From: Akkermansiaceae bacterium
GTDB lineage: Bacteria; Verrucomicrobiota; Verrucomicrobiia; Verrucomicrobiales; Akkermansiaceae
Length of the DNA stretch: 43,003 nt
Assembly: GCA_028822695.1 (NCBI GenBank)
Contig: JAPKDA010000010.1
Location: 1-43,003, forward strand
Direction of reading: 5' to 3'
The notes under the pieces were generated by a model, which saw only the letters and a program-made list of their open reading frames with translations, made no database searches and was not told where the DNA came from. This document shows positions 8,807 to 36,349 of this stretch, in pieces (position 1 is the stretch's first letter; each line of letters starts with the position of its first letter). A program made the translations under genes and the position numbers.

Positions 8807-10150
8807 ATGATACGTTTCTTGCTCCTCTCCCTGATTTGCGCCTCCCTCCACGCCGCTCCGCCCAACATCATCCTCATCCTCTCCGACGACCAGTCCTGGG
8901 GCGACTACAGCTTCATGGGGCACAAACAAATCGAAACCCCCCAAATCGATCAACTCGCCGCCCAGTCCCTGACCTACACCCGCGGCTACGTCACCGCCCC
9001 CCTCTGCCGGCCCTCACTCGCCACCCTCTTCACCGGCCTCTATACCCACCAACACGGCATCACCGGCAATGACCTCCTCGGCCCAGACGGCAAAAAGAAG
9101 GCCAACCGCAGATCTCCGGACGGCGCAAAACTCCACCAACAACTCTACGACCAGTTCCGCGCTTGCACGGGCATCGCCGACGAACTCGGCAAGAACGGCT
9201 ACCTCTCCCTCCAAACCGGCAAGTGGTGGGAGGGTGACCCCAAGGTTTCCGGCTTCACCCACGCCATGACCCACGCCGATCCACAACGCGGCGGCCGCCA
9301 TGGAGACGCCGGACTCAAGGTCTCCCGCAAAGGCATCGACGACGTCCGCAGTTTCCTCGACACCGCCAAGTCCGAGAAAAAACCCTTCTTCATCTGGCAC
9401 GCCCCCTTCCTCCCCCACACCCCACACAATCCTCCCAAGGAACTCTTCAAAAAGTACAAGGCCCTCGTCGATTCCCCCCATGTGGCCCGCTACTACGCCA
9501 TGGTCGAGTGGTTCGACCAAACCTGCGGTGAACTCTTCAACGAACTCGACCAACGCGGACTCACCAAAAACACCGTCATCATCTACATCACCGACAACGG
9601 CTGGATCCAGTCCACTGATTCGGGCCGCTACGCCCCCCTTTCCAAGCAAGACGTCCACGAAGGCGGCATCCGCACCCCCCTCATGATCAAATGGCCCGGC
9701 CACATCGAGCCTCTCATGGACAAAACCACCCCGGTCTCCTCCATCGACATCGCCCCCACCATTCTGAAACTCGCCGGTGCTGATGTCCCCAAGGCCATGA
9801 CCGGCATCGACCTCCGCGACCGCGCCGCCCTTCAAAAACGCAACACCGTCTTCGGCGTCGACCATTCCCACGACATCAGAGGCGTCGACAAGCGCGTCGC
9901 CAACCTCGAGTCCCGCTTCGTCGTCCAAGGCGACTGGAAACTCATCCTCCACAATCCCGCCAACTTTCCTCCGCCAGGTTATGGCAATATAAGGAATGGA
10001 AAAAAGAACAACCCCGAAGGGAAATCCGAACTCTACAAGCTCATCGACGATCCCTACGAATTATCCAACCTCGCCGACAAACATCCCGACAAAGTCGCCA
10101 GTCTCACCAAGGTCCTCAACACCTGGTGGGACGGATCCGACAAAGACTAA
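8807..10150 (+). CDS. Sulfatase with variant C-x-P-S-L active-site motif
   Basis: A 447-residue arylsulfatase-family protein with signal peptide (residues 1-17). The metal-binding Asp pair is at LILSDDQSWGDYSF (residues 27-28). The formylglycine region reads LCRPSLATLFTG: Cys67-Arg-Pro-Ser-Leu71. Classical type I sulfatases have Arg at the fifth position (CxPSR), so this protein lacks the usual arginine. The C-terminal part has the standard YITDNGW and GIRTPLMIKWPG segments. I recall the CRPSL variant in PVC sulfatases, which makes it a likely subfamily rather than damage. It is followed after 4 bp by a second sulfatase gene. Expected location periplasm; a sulfated glycan is a likely substrate. 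Confidence 0.9.
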   Translation: MIRFLLLSLICASLHAAPPNIILILSDDQSWGDYSFMGHKQIETPQIDQLAAQSLTYTRGYVTAPLCRPSLATLFTGLYTHQHGITGNDLLGPDGKKKANRRSPDGAKLHQQLYDQFRACTGIADELGKNGYLSLQTGKWWEGDPKVSGFTHAMTHADPQRGGRHGDAGLKVSRKGIDDVRSFLDTAKSEKKPFFIWHAPFLPHTPHNPPKELFKKYKALVDSPHVARYYAMVEWFDQTCGELFNELDQRGLTKNTVIIYITDNGWIQSTDSGRYAPLSKQDVHEGGIRTPLMIKWPGHIEPLMDKTTPVSSIDIAPTILKLAGADVPKAMTGIDLRDRAALQKRNTVFGVDHSHDIRGVDKRVANLESRFVVQGDWKLILHNPANFPPPGYGNIRNGKKNNPEGKSELYKLIDDPYELSNLADKHPDKVASLTKVLNTWWDGSDKD

Positions 10151-10154
10151 TACA

Positions 10155-11738
10155 ATGAAACATCTCCTCATCCTCCTTCTCTCTCTGGGTTCCGGGTTCT
10201 GGGCTCCGGTCTCTGCGGCCGAAGGCCGCCCCAACATCCTCTTCCTCTTCGCCGATGACCTCGGCCGCTACGCCTCCGCCTACGCTGACCCGGACAATCC
10301 CTCCTTCAACGACATCGTCTCCACCCCCACCTTCGATCGCATCGCAAAAGAGGGAGCGATCGGCAACAACGTCTTCGTCTCCGCGCCCTCCTGCAGCCCC
10401 TGCCGTGCCGCCCTCGTTTCCGGTCGGCACTTTTTCCGCAATGGCTCCTGCTCCCAACTTCATCACAGGTCTTGGAACAGCGACGTTCCCGACCCTTGGG
10501 ACGACGTCAAAGGCTACGCCAAACTCCTCCAAGCCTCCGGTTACCACATCGGCCTCACCCACAAGAACCACGTCAAGAACGCCCCCTTCGGCAAACAATA
10601 CAGCCCCGCCGGTCGGAAGGTGAATGGTTTCTCCCAGACCGTTTCCAAAGCGAAAGACCACAAAGCCGCCAAGAAAGCCCTCTACGAAGAGTGCCGTGGC
10701 AACTTCCAAGCCTTCCTCAAAGATCGCAAGGACGGCCAACCCTTCCTCTACTCCTTCCACCCCACCAACCCCCATCGCAAATGGACGAAGGGTTCTGGTA
10801 AAGCCCTCTGGGGACTCGATCCCGATTCTCTGACTGGCAAGATGCCTCCCTTCCTCCCCGACGTGCACACCGTCCGCGAAGACCTCGCCGACTACATGGG
10901 CGAGGGCATGGCCTTCGACCGCTGCTGCGAAGTCCTCCTCGAGGAGTTGGAAAAAACCGGGGAAGCGGACAACACCCTCGTCATCATTTCCGGGGACCAC
11001 GGCGCCCCCGGCTTCCCCCGCGGCAAAACAAACTGCTACGACTTCGGCGCCCGCGTTCTCTTCGCCGCCCGCTGGCCCGGAAAGATCAAGCCCGCCCAAG
11101 TCATCGACAAACCCATCTCCCTCATCGACGTCGCCCCCACCCTCCTCGCCGCCGCCGGTCTCCCTCCGGAAGAGGGTATGAACGGACAAAACCTCCTCCC
11201 CGCCCTCGCCGAGGCCGACCACTCCAAACTCCGCGGCTGGGCCCTCATCGGACGCGAAGTCCACGTCCATACCGCACGCGAAGCCCAACTCCCCTACCCC
11301 ATGCGGGCCATCCGCACCGGTGATCACCTCTACATCATGAACCTCAAGCCGGACCGCAGTCCGATGGGCGACCTGCATCAGCTCACCAAACCCAAGGACC
11401 CCAGCTTCGACACCCTCGCCAACAGCACCTACGCCACCTACCCCGACGTCGACGCCGGTCCCACCAAGGCCTGGATGGTCCTCAACCGCTTCGACCCGAA
11501 TTACAAACTCCACTGGGACCTCGGCTTCGGCCAACGCCCCGCTGAAGAACTCTACGACTTGAAAACTGACCCCCACCAAATGGTCAACCTCGCCCGGAAC
11601 CCGGAGTACGAGGCCCAACGCTCCGCCCTCAACGCCCAACTCATGTCCGAACTCAAAGTCAACGCCGACCCCCGCCTCAACGGCGACCAGTTCGACCGTC
11701 CCCCCTACTGCAAAATCGGTCTGCGAAACGGCAAGTAG
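10155..11738 (+). CDS. Sulfatase (type I, C-S-P-C-R motif)
   Basis: Start chosen at ATG 10155, 4 bp after the previous sulfatase, giving 527 residues and a signal peptide (MKHLLILLLSLGSGFWAPVSA). Type I sulfatase features: NILFLFADDLGRYA with the metal-binding Asp pair, and the formylglycine motif Cys80-Ser-Pro-Cys-Arg84 followed by AALVSGRH. Later VIISGDHGAPGFPRGKTNCYDFG and the family's C-terminal LYDLKTDPHQMVNLA are present. It fits the heparan/N-sulfoglucosamine sulfohydrolase-like group often found in PVC bacteria, but the substrate cannot be told from sequence. The 5' coding part (10185-10219) is built from a degenerate heptad repeat. Confidence 0.92.
   Translation: MKHLLILLLSLGSGFWAPVSAAEGRPNILFLFADDLGRYASAYADPDNPSFNDIVSTPTFDRIAKEGAIGNNVFVSAPSCSPCRAALVSGRHFFRNGSCSQLHHRSWNSDVPDPWDDVKGYAKLLQASGYHIGLTHKNHVKNAPFGKQYSPAGRKVNGFSQTVSKAKDHKAAKKALYEECRGNFQAFLKDRKDGQPFLYSFHPTNPHRKWTKGSGKALWGLDPDSLTGKMPPFLPDVHTVREDLADYMGEGMAFDRCCEVLLEELEKTGEADNTLVIISGDHGAPGFPRGKTNCYDFGARVLFAARWPGKIKPAQVIDKPISLIDVAPTLLAAAGLPPEEGMNGQNLLPALAEADHSKLRGWALIGREVHVHTAREAQLPYPMRAIRTGDHLYIMNLKPDRSPMGDLHQLTKPKDPSFDTLANSTYATYPDVDAGPTKAWMVLNRFDPNYKLHWDLGFGQRPAEELYDLKTDPHQMVNLARNPEYEAQRSALNAQLMSELKVNADPRLNGDQFDRPPYCKIGLRNGK
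10185..10219. repeat. Degenerate heptanucleotide tandem repeat, copy 2 (inside signal peptide)
   Basis: Five 7-mers: CTGGGTT, CCGGGTT, CTGGGCT, CCGGTCT, CTGCGGC. They encode residues LGSGFWAPVSAA of the second sulfatase's signal peptide. A 12-base core (CTGGGTTCCGGG) is identical to the copy at 25064. Confidence 0.65.
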
Positions 11739-32881: not shown

Positions 32882-34144
32882 TCACGGGAACAGGCCGCGG
32901 ACTTGCTTCACCTTGACAACTTCACAGATCCCCAAACAGAGCGCCGCCATGCGATGAGACACTTTTTTCGAGCGCACGAAGGTCAGGAACCGCTCGAAGG
33001 CTCCCTCCATATGTGTCTCGAGTTTCGTGAGCACCTCACGTTCACCCCAGTGGAAACGTTGTAAGTTCTGGACCCATTCGAAGTAGGACACCGTCACCCC
33101 TCCCGCGTTGCAGAGCACATCAGGGATCACGAAGATATCACCGCGCTCCTCAATGATTGTATCCGCCTCCGGTGTGGTCGGGCCATTCGCGGCTTCCGCC
33201 AAAACTTTGCACCGAAGCTGTGCTGCATTGGCCTTCGTGATGACCCGCTCCACTGCAGCTGGCACCAGCACATCGCATTCCTGCAAGAGCAACGCCTCCG
33301 GATCGATTGCCTCCGCTTCAGGAAAGCCTGCCACTCCTCCATTTGCGACGACATGCTTATGCAAAGCGCTGACATCCAGCCCTTTACCGTTCCAAATGGC
33401 TCCAGTGATGTCCGAGATGCCGCACACATGCATCCCAAAGCCGCTCATCGTTTCGGCCGTGTAATGCCCCACATTTCCAAATCCTTGGATGACCGCCGTC
33501 GCACCCGTAACGGTGATCCCCAGCTTGTTCAGAGCGCGGCTCGCGAGGAACGCCACCCCGTGGCCCGTCGCTTGCTTCCGGCCAGCCGATCCTTGCAACT
33601 CAAGCGGCTTTCCAGTCACGATTCCCGGCACGAGATGCCCAGCGTAGGTAGAGTAGACATCGACCATCCAAGCCATGGTCTGCTCGTCGGTCCCCATGTC
33701 CGGTGCCATCACGTCGACCTCTTGACCGATGAAAGGCAACATCTCCATCGTGAAACGGCGCGTCAGCTTTTCCTTTTCGCGGGTACTCATTCCCCTTGGG
33801 TCACAGGCAATCCCTCCCTTCGCACCCCCATAGGGCAGTCGCATCAGCGCACACTTCCAATTCATCCACATCGCCAGGGCCGCGACCTCCCCAAGATCAA
33901 CCGACGGATGATAACGCAACCCGCCCTTCACCGGCCCCCGGGACAAATGATGTTGGACCCGGTGTCCAAAAAACACCTCCGTGCGCCCATCATCCATGCG
34001 CACAGGCATGGTCACCGTGATCAACCGCTTCGGCCACTTGCAGCGTTCCCGGATATCCTCCCCGAGTTCCAGATAATCAGCCACCCGATCGAACTGTGTC
34101 GCGGCCATTTGAAAAACCGGACTCTGCAATAACTGTTCCTTCAT
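32882..34144 (-). CDS. gdhA: Glu/Leu/Phe/Val dehydrogenase
   Basis: 420 residues from ATG 34144, chosen because GGAGGTGATT precedes it directly. The dimerisation domain has GGLRYHPSVDLGEV and the catalytic-lysine loop RLPYGGAKGGI; the Rossmann domain shows VIQGFGNVGHYTAE with its nucleotide-binding glycines, and LAEAANGPTTPEAD. It interconverts glutamate and 2-oxoglutarate plus ammonia, or acts on branched-chain amino acids; the sequence fits hexameric NAD-type GDH best. Cytoplasmic. Single gene, divergent from the selenoprotein candidate. Confidence 0.94.
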   Translation of the reverse strand: MKEQLLQSPVFQMAATQFDRVADYLELGEDIRERCKWPKRLITVTMPVRMDDGRTEVFFGHRVQHHLSRGPVKGGLRYHPSVDLGEVAALAMWMNWKCALMRLPYGGAKGGIACDPRGMSTREKEKLTRRFTMEMLPFIGQEVDVMAPDMGTDEQTMAWMVDVYSTYAGHLVPGIVTGKPLELQGSAGRKQATGHGVAFLASRALNKLGITVTGATAVIQGFGNVGHYTAETMSGFGMHVCGISDITGAIWNGKGLDVSALHKHVVANGGVAGFPEAEAIDPEALLLQECDVLVPAAVERVITKANAAQLRCKVLAEAANGPTTPEADTIIEERGDIFVIPDVLCNAGGVTVSYFEWVQNLQRFHWGEREVLTKLETHMEGAFERFLTFVRSKKVSHRMAALCLGICEVVKVKQVRGLFP

Positions 34145-34154
34145 AATCACCTCC
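34145..34154 (-). promoter_or_regulatory. Strong ribosome binding site of gdh
   Basis: On the minus strand GGAGGTGATT lies immediately before ATG 34144, a near-complete anti-16S match. It decides the start: the in-frame GTG two codons upstream overlaps this site. Such sites are rare among the other genes of this window. Confidence 0.8.
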
Positions 34155-34315: not shown

Positions 34316-34897
34316 ATGAAATTCCATCTCCACATCCCTCTCCTTGCCCTCGCCGGCCTCTTTGTCGGCTGCGACGCCGAGCAAGCCACACAAACCCCTG
34401 ACGACGCTCCTCCCGCAAAGGAGCGGGTTGCGGATCCGAATGCGAAGGCCGCTCTAGAAGCCCAAGTGGTCGGCAGCAAGCTCCTTGGAAACACCGTCCG
34501 CTTCGCTGGCGACTCCTTCCAGCCCGCTGATCTCGACTTCGTGCCAGAGGCCTACTTCGTCTATTACTCGGCCAGTTGGTGAGGACCCTGCCGCGCCCAT
34601 GCTCCACAGTTAGTGGAGTCCTACAAGAAGCACATTGCCGACAATTCAAAGGTTGCCATGATCCACATCAGCTACGACGAGGATGAAGCGGAGGCCACCA
34701 AGTGGGCCAAGAAGGAGAGCTTCCCCTGGCTCACCGTTTTGGAGCCCCAGCACAAGGCCTCCGGCCTCGATCAATTCGCCGGCGAGTTCATTCCCGAGTA
34801 TATTCTCATTTCCCAAGAGGGCAAAGTCCTCGCCAAGGGGAAAGACGAGTGCTTGGAGAAGATCTCGGCCATGAACAAGTCGATCGCCTCGAACTGA
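34316..34897 (+). CDS. Probable selenoprotein: thioredoxin-like lipoprotein with W-U-G-P-C active site
   Basis: One unbroken frame of 193 residues with a TGA at codon 89 (34580-34582). It reads VYYSASW-TGA-GPCRAHAP, exactly the WCGPC site of thioredoxin-fold proteins with the first cysteine replaced by TGA; Cys92 resolves. Both sides are clearly one protein: before it a lipoprotein signal (LALAGLFVGC19) and a linker, after it the nucleoredoxin/tryparedoxin-like VAMIHISYDEDEAEATKWA, FPWLTVLEP, and IPEYILISQEGKVLAKG with cis-Pro context. A SECIS-like hairpin follows at the right distance (34602-34618). I infer selenocysteine insertion (Sec89). Likely a periplasm-facing thiol or selenol redox protein. 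A nonsense mutation of TGC/TGT is the alternative. Confidence 0.75.
34602..34618 (+). promoter_or_regulatory. Bacterial SECIS-like hairpin
   Basis: CTCCAC (34602-34607), loop AGTTA (34608-34612), GTGGAG (34613-34618): a perfect 6-bp stem. The loop starts 25 bases after the TGA, inside the 16-37-base window known for bacterial SECIS elements, and has G at the second loop position as expected. It lies in the coding sequence, as bacterial SECIS elements do. Confidence 0.6.
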
Positions 34898-34940: not shown

Positions 34941-35117
34941 ATGAAATTAATCGTTGCCTTTGTTGTGCTCTCCCTCCTGAGCTCCTGCAGCCTCCTGAAG
35001 GTCCCTGTGAGAACCCTCAAGGCGGTCGGGCGCACCTTCGGCATCACCGCCAATGACGCCTCGCTACAGATTAATAGTGATCATCTGGAAATCTCCCCTG
35101 ACGAATATTCAGATTAG
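34941..35117 (+). CDS. Small lipoprotein, unknown function
   Basis: 58 residues from ATG 34941. A short basic-hydrophobic signal (MKLIVAFVVLSLL) ends in a lipobox, LLSSC16, so the mature protein is about 43 residues tethered to a membrane: SLLKVPVRTLKAVGRTFGIT, then an acidic tail (LEISPDEYSD). No family recognised. It follows the selenoprotein candidate by 43 bp in the same direction and may be co-transcribed. Confidence 0.7.
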   Translation: MKLIVAFVVLSLLSSCSLLKVPVRTLKAVGRTFGITANDASLQINSDHLEISPDEYSD

Positions 35118-35609: not shown

Positions 35610-35738
35610 GGAGAAGCACCCTGAAAGCTCCCGACCGGTTTTGCAAAAATTTCTTGCTCCGCCGGGGTCGCTGTGGTGAATTCCCCGCCCGCCCAGCCCC
35701 TCCACGGAGCCCGCGCCACACCCCAACCAATTTCCCAG

Positions 35739-36053
35739 ATGTCTTACGCAGTAATTAAAACAGGCGGTAAACAATACCGCGTCCAAGAGGGCGACAAAAT
35801 CGACGTCGAAAAGCTCGCGGTCGATGTCGACGACGATATTCGCTTCGTTGAGGTCCTCCTCGTGAACGACGGCTCCTCCACCAAGGTCGGGGCCCCCTTT
35901 GTCTCCGGTGCCACCGTCACCGCGAAAGTGGTCGACCAATTCCGCGGCCCCAAAGGCGTCGCCTTCAAATTCAAACGCCGTAAAGGATACCACAAGACCA
36001 AGGGCTTCCGTCGCTCCCTGACGAAGCTCGAGATCACCGGTATCGCCGGTTAA
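35739..36053 (+). CDS. rplU: 50S ribosomal protein L21
   Basis: 104 residues, the normal L21 length. [21 protein letters not shown] at the N-terminus and [20 protein letters not shown] at the C-terminus are diagnostic. L21 binds domain regions of 23S rRNA near L20. It is followed by rpmA after 41 bp, the conserved rplU-rpmA pair. Start chosen at the ATG giving the canonical [10 protein letters not shown]; the frame extends upstream without homology. Confidence 0.98.
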
Positions 36054-36094
36054 TCCTCCCACTCTTCACAACCTCTTTCCAACCACCTCTCGAT

Positions 36095-36349
36095 ATGGCC
36101 CATAAAAAAGGACAAGGATCCGTTAAAAACGGTCGCGACTCGCGCAGCAAGCGCCTCGGCGTGAAAAAGTTTGGCGGCGAAGTCGTCATTCCCGGCAACA
36201 TCATCCTCCGCCAGCGTGGCACCAAGTGGCACCCCGGCGCCAACGTCGGCATCGGCAAGGACCACACCATCTTCGCTCTCGTCGAAGGCAATGTGTTCTT
36301 CGATCGCAAAGGCCGCCGCGTCAACGTCGCCCTGGCTGAAGCCAACTAA
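36095..36349 (+). CDS. rpmA: 50S ribosomal protein L27
   Basis: 84 residues. [20 protein letters not shown] starts with the mature-type N-terminus (no cleavable Firmicutes-type leader), then [22 protein letters not shown] and [16 protein letters not shown]. The N-terminal tail of L27 reaches the peptidyl transferase centre. Paired with rplU, with a strong intrinsic terminator 25 bp after its stop. Confidence 0.98.

Follow-up and report, generated by a model that had tools for sequence, protein, structure and literature searches.

Thioredoxin, thiol-disulfide-isomerase-like, and Trx-like 1 selenoproteins with selenocysteine (Sec) in a UxxC motif have already been described from the Sargasso Sea (PMC1088965), from GOS (PMC2398784), and in a catalogue of 119 prokaryotic selenoprotein families which, in the portions of its text available, contains several UxxC thioredoxin-like bins (PMC13188914). 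The same portions give the criteria for a bacterial SECIS element (bSECIS): a loop of 3 to 9 nt on a stem of 4 to 16 bp, a G within the first two loop positions, a distance of 16 to 37 nt from the UGA to the apical loop, and a minimum free energy (MFE) of −7.5 kcal/mol or lower. Here, a candidate of this kind is analyzed in a 43,003-nucleotide stretch of DNA (the window; contig JAPKDA010000010.1 of assembly GCA_028822695.1) from an Akkermansiaceae bacterium, for which an earlier note had proposed a Sec-containing lipoprotein thioredoxin.

A thioredoxin gene with an in-frame TGA

The gene occupies positions 34316 to 34897 of the plus strand, starts with ATG, and ends in a TGA terminator (34895-34897). 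Read through, the frame yields 193 residues, and codon 89 (34580..34582) is its only internal TGA: MKFHLHIPLLALAGLFVGC...YFVYYSASW-U-GPCRAHAPQLVESYKKH..., followed by the terminator. The internal TGA lies at the first active-site position of a W-TGA-G-P-C motif and is read here as selenocysteine U89 of UGPC, whereas the resolving cysteine of the UxxC motif, C92 (34589..34591), is invariant across the family alignment. The Pfam domain Thioredoxin_8 spans the TGA (residues 81-171, E = 2.5e-10), placing homology on both sides of a UGA at the redox position. The earlier note's account of one frame, with TGA replacing the first Cys of WCGPC and homology on either side, was correct in every sequence detail, and its expectation that automatic annotation would split the gene is borne out by standard ORF calling, which produces fragments at 34316-34582 (88 aa) and 34613-34897 (94 aa).

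To follow the TGA among relatives, 195 Akkermansiaceae genomes were searched. Every match listed, down to an E value of ∼1e-20, bears the TGA, and a hand count among the matches listed places TGA-bearing homologues in at least 64 of the 195 genomes. From the fetched loci, 73 distinct family genes were taken, and in 73/73 the aligned codon is TGA; a TGA there was required for extraction, and the unselected evidence is the match list of the 195 genomes. The codon is embedded in S-A-S-W-U-[G/P]-P-C or close variants, and the frame downstream is intact in all TGA homologues. The nearest homologue among the relatives is that of G007, a genome of the same genus, at 62% identity, and a second family member is present in the source genome itself (C161:21005-21460). 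In a sample of 388 genomes from the phylum, TGA forms were found only inside Akkermansiaceae and stop-less forms elsewhere, among the matches listed.

In distant homologues the site is Cys (TGC/TGT), one base from TGA, which would suit a Cys thioredoxin gene that had recently acquired a nonsense mutation or that contains a base error. Against this stand 73 genes, drawn from many independent genomes, that share the TGA; the paralogue on C161, which has it too; the intact downstream frames; and the covarying hairpin described below. The joint conservation of TGA and hairpin refutes a pseudogene or error, to which we assign a practically nil probability. A misread base at 34582 in particular is excluded because dozens of assemblies, made independently, have the identical TGA, as does the second copy in the source genome.

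The gene lies in a conserved neighborhood. On the minus strand upstream is what we take to be a Glu/Leu-type amino-acid dehydrogenase gene (32882..34150), found on the same side with 87% identity in G007 and 75% in G036, a genome of another genus. Directly downstream, on the plus strand, is a short putative lipoprotein without a Pfam family (34941..35117), and a similar short lipoprotein-like frame is present at the matching place in G036. The downstream block (35673..36349, plus strand) presumably encodes ribosomal proteins L21 and L27 (rplU/rpmA). The order dehydrogenase, Sec-thioredoxin, rplU/rpmA and, further along, a gene assumed to be tryptophanyl-tRNA-synthetase-like is kept in G007 and G036. 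At the orthologous locus in G036 (L203, ∼8865-10850, minus strand), three Sec-thioredoxin genes are arranged in tandem, and clusters of two occur in several genomes of group g16. A different protein of the AhpC/TSA-Redoxin type (355 aa), with FWGHW-TGA-GPC, is also a candidate selenoprotein; its gene adjoins a Sec-thioredoxin gene in G114 (L043:2087-3151, minus strand).

A covarying hairpin downstream of the TGA

The putative SECIS element occupies positions 34601..34619 of the plus strand and has the sequence GCUCCAC-AGUUA-GUGGAGU, in which a 7-bp stem (34601-34607 with 34613-34619) closes a loop (34608-34612) that starts 25 nt downstream of the TGA and carries the key G (34609) at its second position. 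By itself, the hairpin folds at −9.9 kcal/mol, and its 6-bp core folds at −7.9. The 5-nt loop on a stem of 6 to 7 bp, the AG at the loop start, the 25-nt spacing, and either energy thus fall within all four published bSECIS limits cited above. The hairpin of the earlier note (6 bp, with a G in a 5-base loop 25 bases after the TGA) was thereby confirmed, with a stem of 6 to 7 bp.

Folded as a single sequence, the window hairpin is unremarkable (64 nt, z = −0.93), and its significance derives from comparison across homologues. In 69 homologues, the region after the TGA folds better than synonymous recodings, with a mean z of ∼−1.4 at +15 to +21 nt; the excess is limited to hairpin-containing windows, and z is near 0 further downstream. 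Across 66 distinct sequences, both sides changed at 6 of the 7 pairs (3.3 in shuffles), double-sided changes filled 26 cells compared to 5.4 (SD, 2.0) in shuffles, and 84% of helix cells were paired compared to 31 to 50% with the partner slid, where the shuffle counts are not to be read as probabilities because the sequences are related and protein coding. The compensatory changes include a loop-adjacent C-G replaced by G-C (codon GTG to CTG) and a U-A replaced by G-C (codon GAG to GCC). The loop begins with AG in 73/73 TGA genes and with AGTT in 71/73. An Rfam search returned no match for the hairpin, and a search of the source genome with the loop/stem core found a properly placed in-frame TGA only at its two Sec-thioredoxins.

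The stem lies within a conserved peptide (APQLVE), and some members break one pair, which would suit a hairpin that is a by-product of protein conservation. The synonymous positions, however, are frozen far beyond codon usage: the loop codon for Gln is CAG in 64/64 cases (45% elsewhere in the same genes), that for Leu is TTA/TTG in 62/62 (14% elsewhere), and that for Val is GTG in 60/60 (24% elsewhere).

A natural control is provided by 90 Cys homologues from Akkermansia and other Verrucomicrobiota, collected by a contig scan with the family alignment, which retrieved Cys homologues only because the alignment was back-translated with Cys; the same scan with the window protein as query gave no match. 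The codon at this position is TGA in 73 homologues and a Cys codon in 90. The Cys homologues share the domain and a SASWC[GP]PC motif with the Sec family but have TGC/TGT at the active site and lack the CAGTT loop sequence (0/90), and Leu at the loop-equivalent site is TTR in only 11/62 of them. One of them (L100) retains the identical peptide APQLVEKY, encoded with CAA CTC GTG. This case and the absence of the loop from the Cys homologues weigh against the by-product reading, which we consider vanishingly improbable, and in favor of a SECIS element supported by covariation, the synonymous-codon test, its absence in Cys homologues, and its MFE. The scenario that the earlier note would have found damaging, namely, related strains with TGC/TGT and no conserved hairpin, does not apply to the nearest relatives, which have TGA and a hairpin conserved with covariation.

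The genomes of L100-L102, which are Sec-like Cys homologues, had been expected to have lost selA; this expectation was rejected, as selA is present in them, that of L100 included. In those genomes, the hairpin therefore goes with the TGA and not with the genome. At least two changes of Sec/Cys label are needed on the family tree, whose columns are too few to place L100-L102 as Sec-to-Cys reversions. In genomes of the Akkermansia-like group g3 (e.g., G046, L195), the homologue is almost the same as the one in Akkermansia muciniphila (L104, L109), from which the taxonomic family searched is deduced to be Akkermansiaceae; no selA was found in g3 genomes among the matches listed.

Sec-decoding machinery and its co-occurrence with the gene

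The source genome encodes a tRNA-Sec with a UCA anticodon at the end of contig C175, and SelB (313.9 bits) and SelA (481 bits), both on C56. No selD match above the cut-off was found in this draft assembly (94.66% complete, 226 contigs), which is most simply explained by a gap in the assembly. Of the four genes that the earlier note had named as a check, selA, selB, and the tRNA-Sec gene (selC) were thus found and selD was not, and the lack of selB/selC that would have spoken against Sec is ruled out. SelD is a known selenoprotein in the catalogue text available (PMC13188914). In relatives, it has one internal TGA in 15/15 cases searched (L090-L099 and others), and SelD is itself probably a selenoprotein in Akkermansiaceae.

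Among the matches listed for the 195 genomes, selA and the TGA-thioredoxin occur together in 58, the TGA-thioredoxin alone in 6, selA alone in 12, and neither in 119 (Fisher P of ∼2e-30, ignoring kinship). Accordingly, selA is present in 58/64 TGA genomes and in 12/131 without a listed TGA member, the count of TGA members being a lower bound. Five of the six TGA genomes without a selA match are 70 to 86% complete, and the sixth (G059) is 96% complete. The selA gene is split or fragmentary in G093:C5, G101, G074, and G080, where the Sec machinery is possibly decaying or broken by the assembly.

An open frame is expected from any read-through, including one in which near-cognate suppression or a genome-wide recoding lets UGA stand for Trp, Cys, or Gly. 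Such a reading must accommodate the TGA that terminates the same gene, the presence of tRNA-Sec(UCA), SelA, and SelB, a hairpin with the geometry of a bacterial SECIS, and a gene whose occurrence follows selA; we consider it very improbable. The Sec insertion that the earlier note had deduced is instead supported by TGA conservation, the covarying hairpin, and the Sec machinery, and on this genomic evidence the window gene is almost certainly a selenoprotein gene decoded by SECIS-directed Sec insertion. SelB and Sec-tRNA(UCA) would recognize the hairpin, which starts ∼19 nt past the UGA, and insert Sec at residue 89, after which the ribosome would continue to the TGA at 34895.

Predicted protein, possible role, and comparison with known systems

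The protein begins with a predicted lipoprotein signal peptide (34316..34372, plus strand) whose lipobox, L-F-V-G-C, ends in the putatively lipidated Cys19 (34370-34372). Lipoboxes, judged by eye, are also present in the close relatives L021, L022, L023, L027, L028, and L033 (LLASC, LVLGGC, LFLGSC, etc.). The part of the earlier claim of a membrane-anchored periplasmic lipoprotein that concerns the signal is thus corroborated by relatives; the anchoring and periplasmic location are predicted. Most other members have no lipobox and carry a signal peptide and a short ARTWTSADG... domain instead. In one of the two members tested, this domain resembles SHD1 with an E value (0.0088) that does not reach the Pfam cut-off, and the assignment of the N-terminal domain of the paralogues to SHD1 is a lead only. 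Two Sec-thioredoxins of ∼390 aa in total (L029, L030) have a long N-terminal extension, in which a charged stretch that may form a coiled coil comes after a hydrophobic N-terminal segment.

AlphaFold2 predicts a thioredoxin fold (pLDDT, 89.3) with UxxC at a helix start. The structural neighbors are tryparedoxins, ResA, and StoA, with which the sequence profile matches agree. The protein scores far below the NCBIfam cut-offs for dsbE (31.2 versus 123.15 bits) and ResA (25.7 versus 170 bits), and the term ResA-like refers here to its fold and presumed function only. A homologue of the DsbD transmembrane protein is present in the source genome, and exported ResA/StoA/TlpA-like proteins are reductases.

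We propose that the protein works in the envelope as a thiol-disulfide reductase, with a selenol as its nucleophile. The product would be exported, lipidated at Cys19, and face the periplasm, where it may act as a tryparedoxin/ResA-like thiol-disulfide reductase: U89 would attack substrate disulfides or oxidized sulfur/selenium groups, C92 would resolve the mixed intermediate, and recharging would probably proceed via a DsbD-type membrane electron carrier. The protein could instead be an oxidase or isomerase (DsbA/DsbC) or a peroxidase-coupled carrier, as the nearest solved sequences are tryparedoxins, which feed peroxiredoxins, and UGPC/UPPC motifs are compatible with either redox direction. 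Nothing decisive stands against these roles, although the DsbD homologue and the reductase activity of ResA/StoA/TlpA-like proteins point the other way; we regard them as a sizable minority prospect and a reductase role as moderately probable. More tentatively still, and on balance doubtfully, Akkermansiaceae outside Akkermansia might have evolved their own envelope selenol-thiol relay, in which lineage-restricted, tandemly duplicated Sec-thioredoxins (lipid-anchored and SHD1-like forms) would be the main reductants of the periplasm and contribute to the retention of Sec decoding.

These results add a well-supported selenoprotein family to a bacterial group that selenoprotein reviews, in the text available, do not mention, and they show that standard gene callers report such genes as two pieces. 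Sec forms with a SECIS and Cys forms without one, in a single thioredoxin family near the gut genus Akkermansia, offer a natural comparison, and the question of why envelope thioredoxins would use selenium becomes testable.

The earlier note did not recall such a protein as described. UxxC thioredoxin-like selenoproteins are well known, and in that respect the claim does not hold; the particular family, with its lipoprotein and fused forms, was not found in NCBIfam or in the available text of the 2026 catalogue, which does not mention Verrucomicrobia, lipoproteins, or the periplasm (PMC13188914). None of the curated NCBIfam selenoprotein models matched the family in general, and two single members matched weakly, one to TsoB and one to TUGYCR. 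The strings SASWU and WUGPC were absent from the literature text searched, which excludes sequences in figures and supplements. The kind is therefore known, and the Akkermansiaceae family is apparently uncatalogued and lineage restricted, although the Trx-like bins of marine metagenomes may already include members without a named host.

Compared to known systems, the family resembles the ResA/StoA/TlpA (DsbE) reductases, its structural and sequence neighbors, in having an exported or membrane-anchored thioredoxin-like domain, but those enzymes use Cys rather than Sec, and the window protein falls far short of their family cut-offs. Tryparedoxin, the best solved-structure match by both sequence and fold, is eukaryotic and has Cys, not Sec, in its active site. 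With the described UxxC selenoproteins (PMC1088965, PMC2398784, and PMC13188914, as far as their available text goes), the family shares the thioredoxin fold, a UxxC motif whose first residue is Sec, and a bacterial SECIS in the coding region right after the UGA. Those entries are broad superfamily bins from metagenomes, whereas the Akkermansiaceae family is distinguished by its SASWU[GP]PC...APQLVE core, its lipoprotein or N-terminally extended forms, and a range of one bacterial family within the samples searched.
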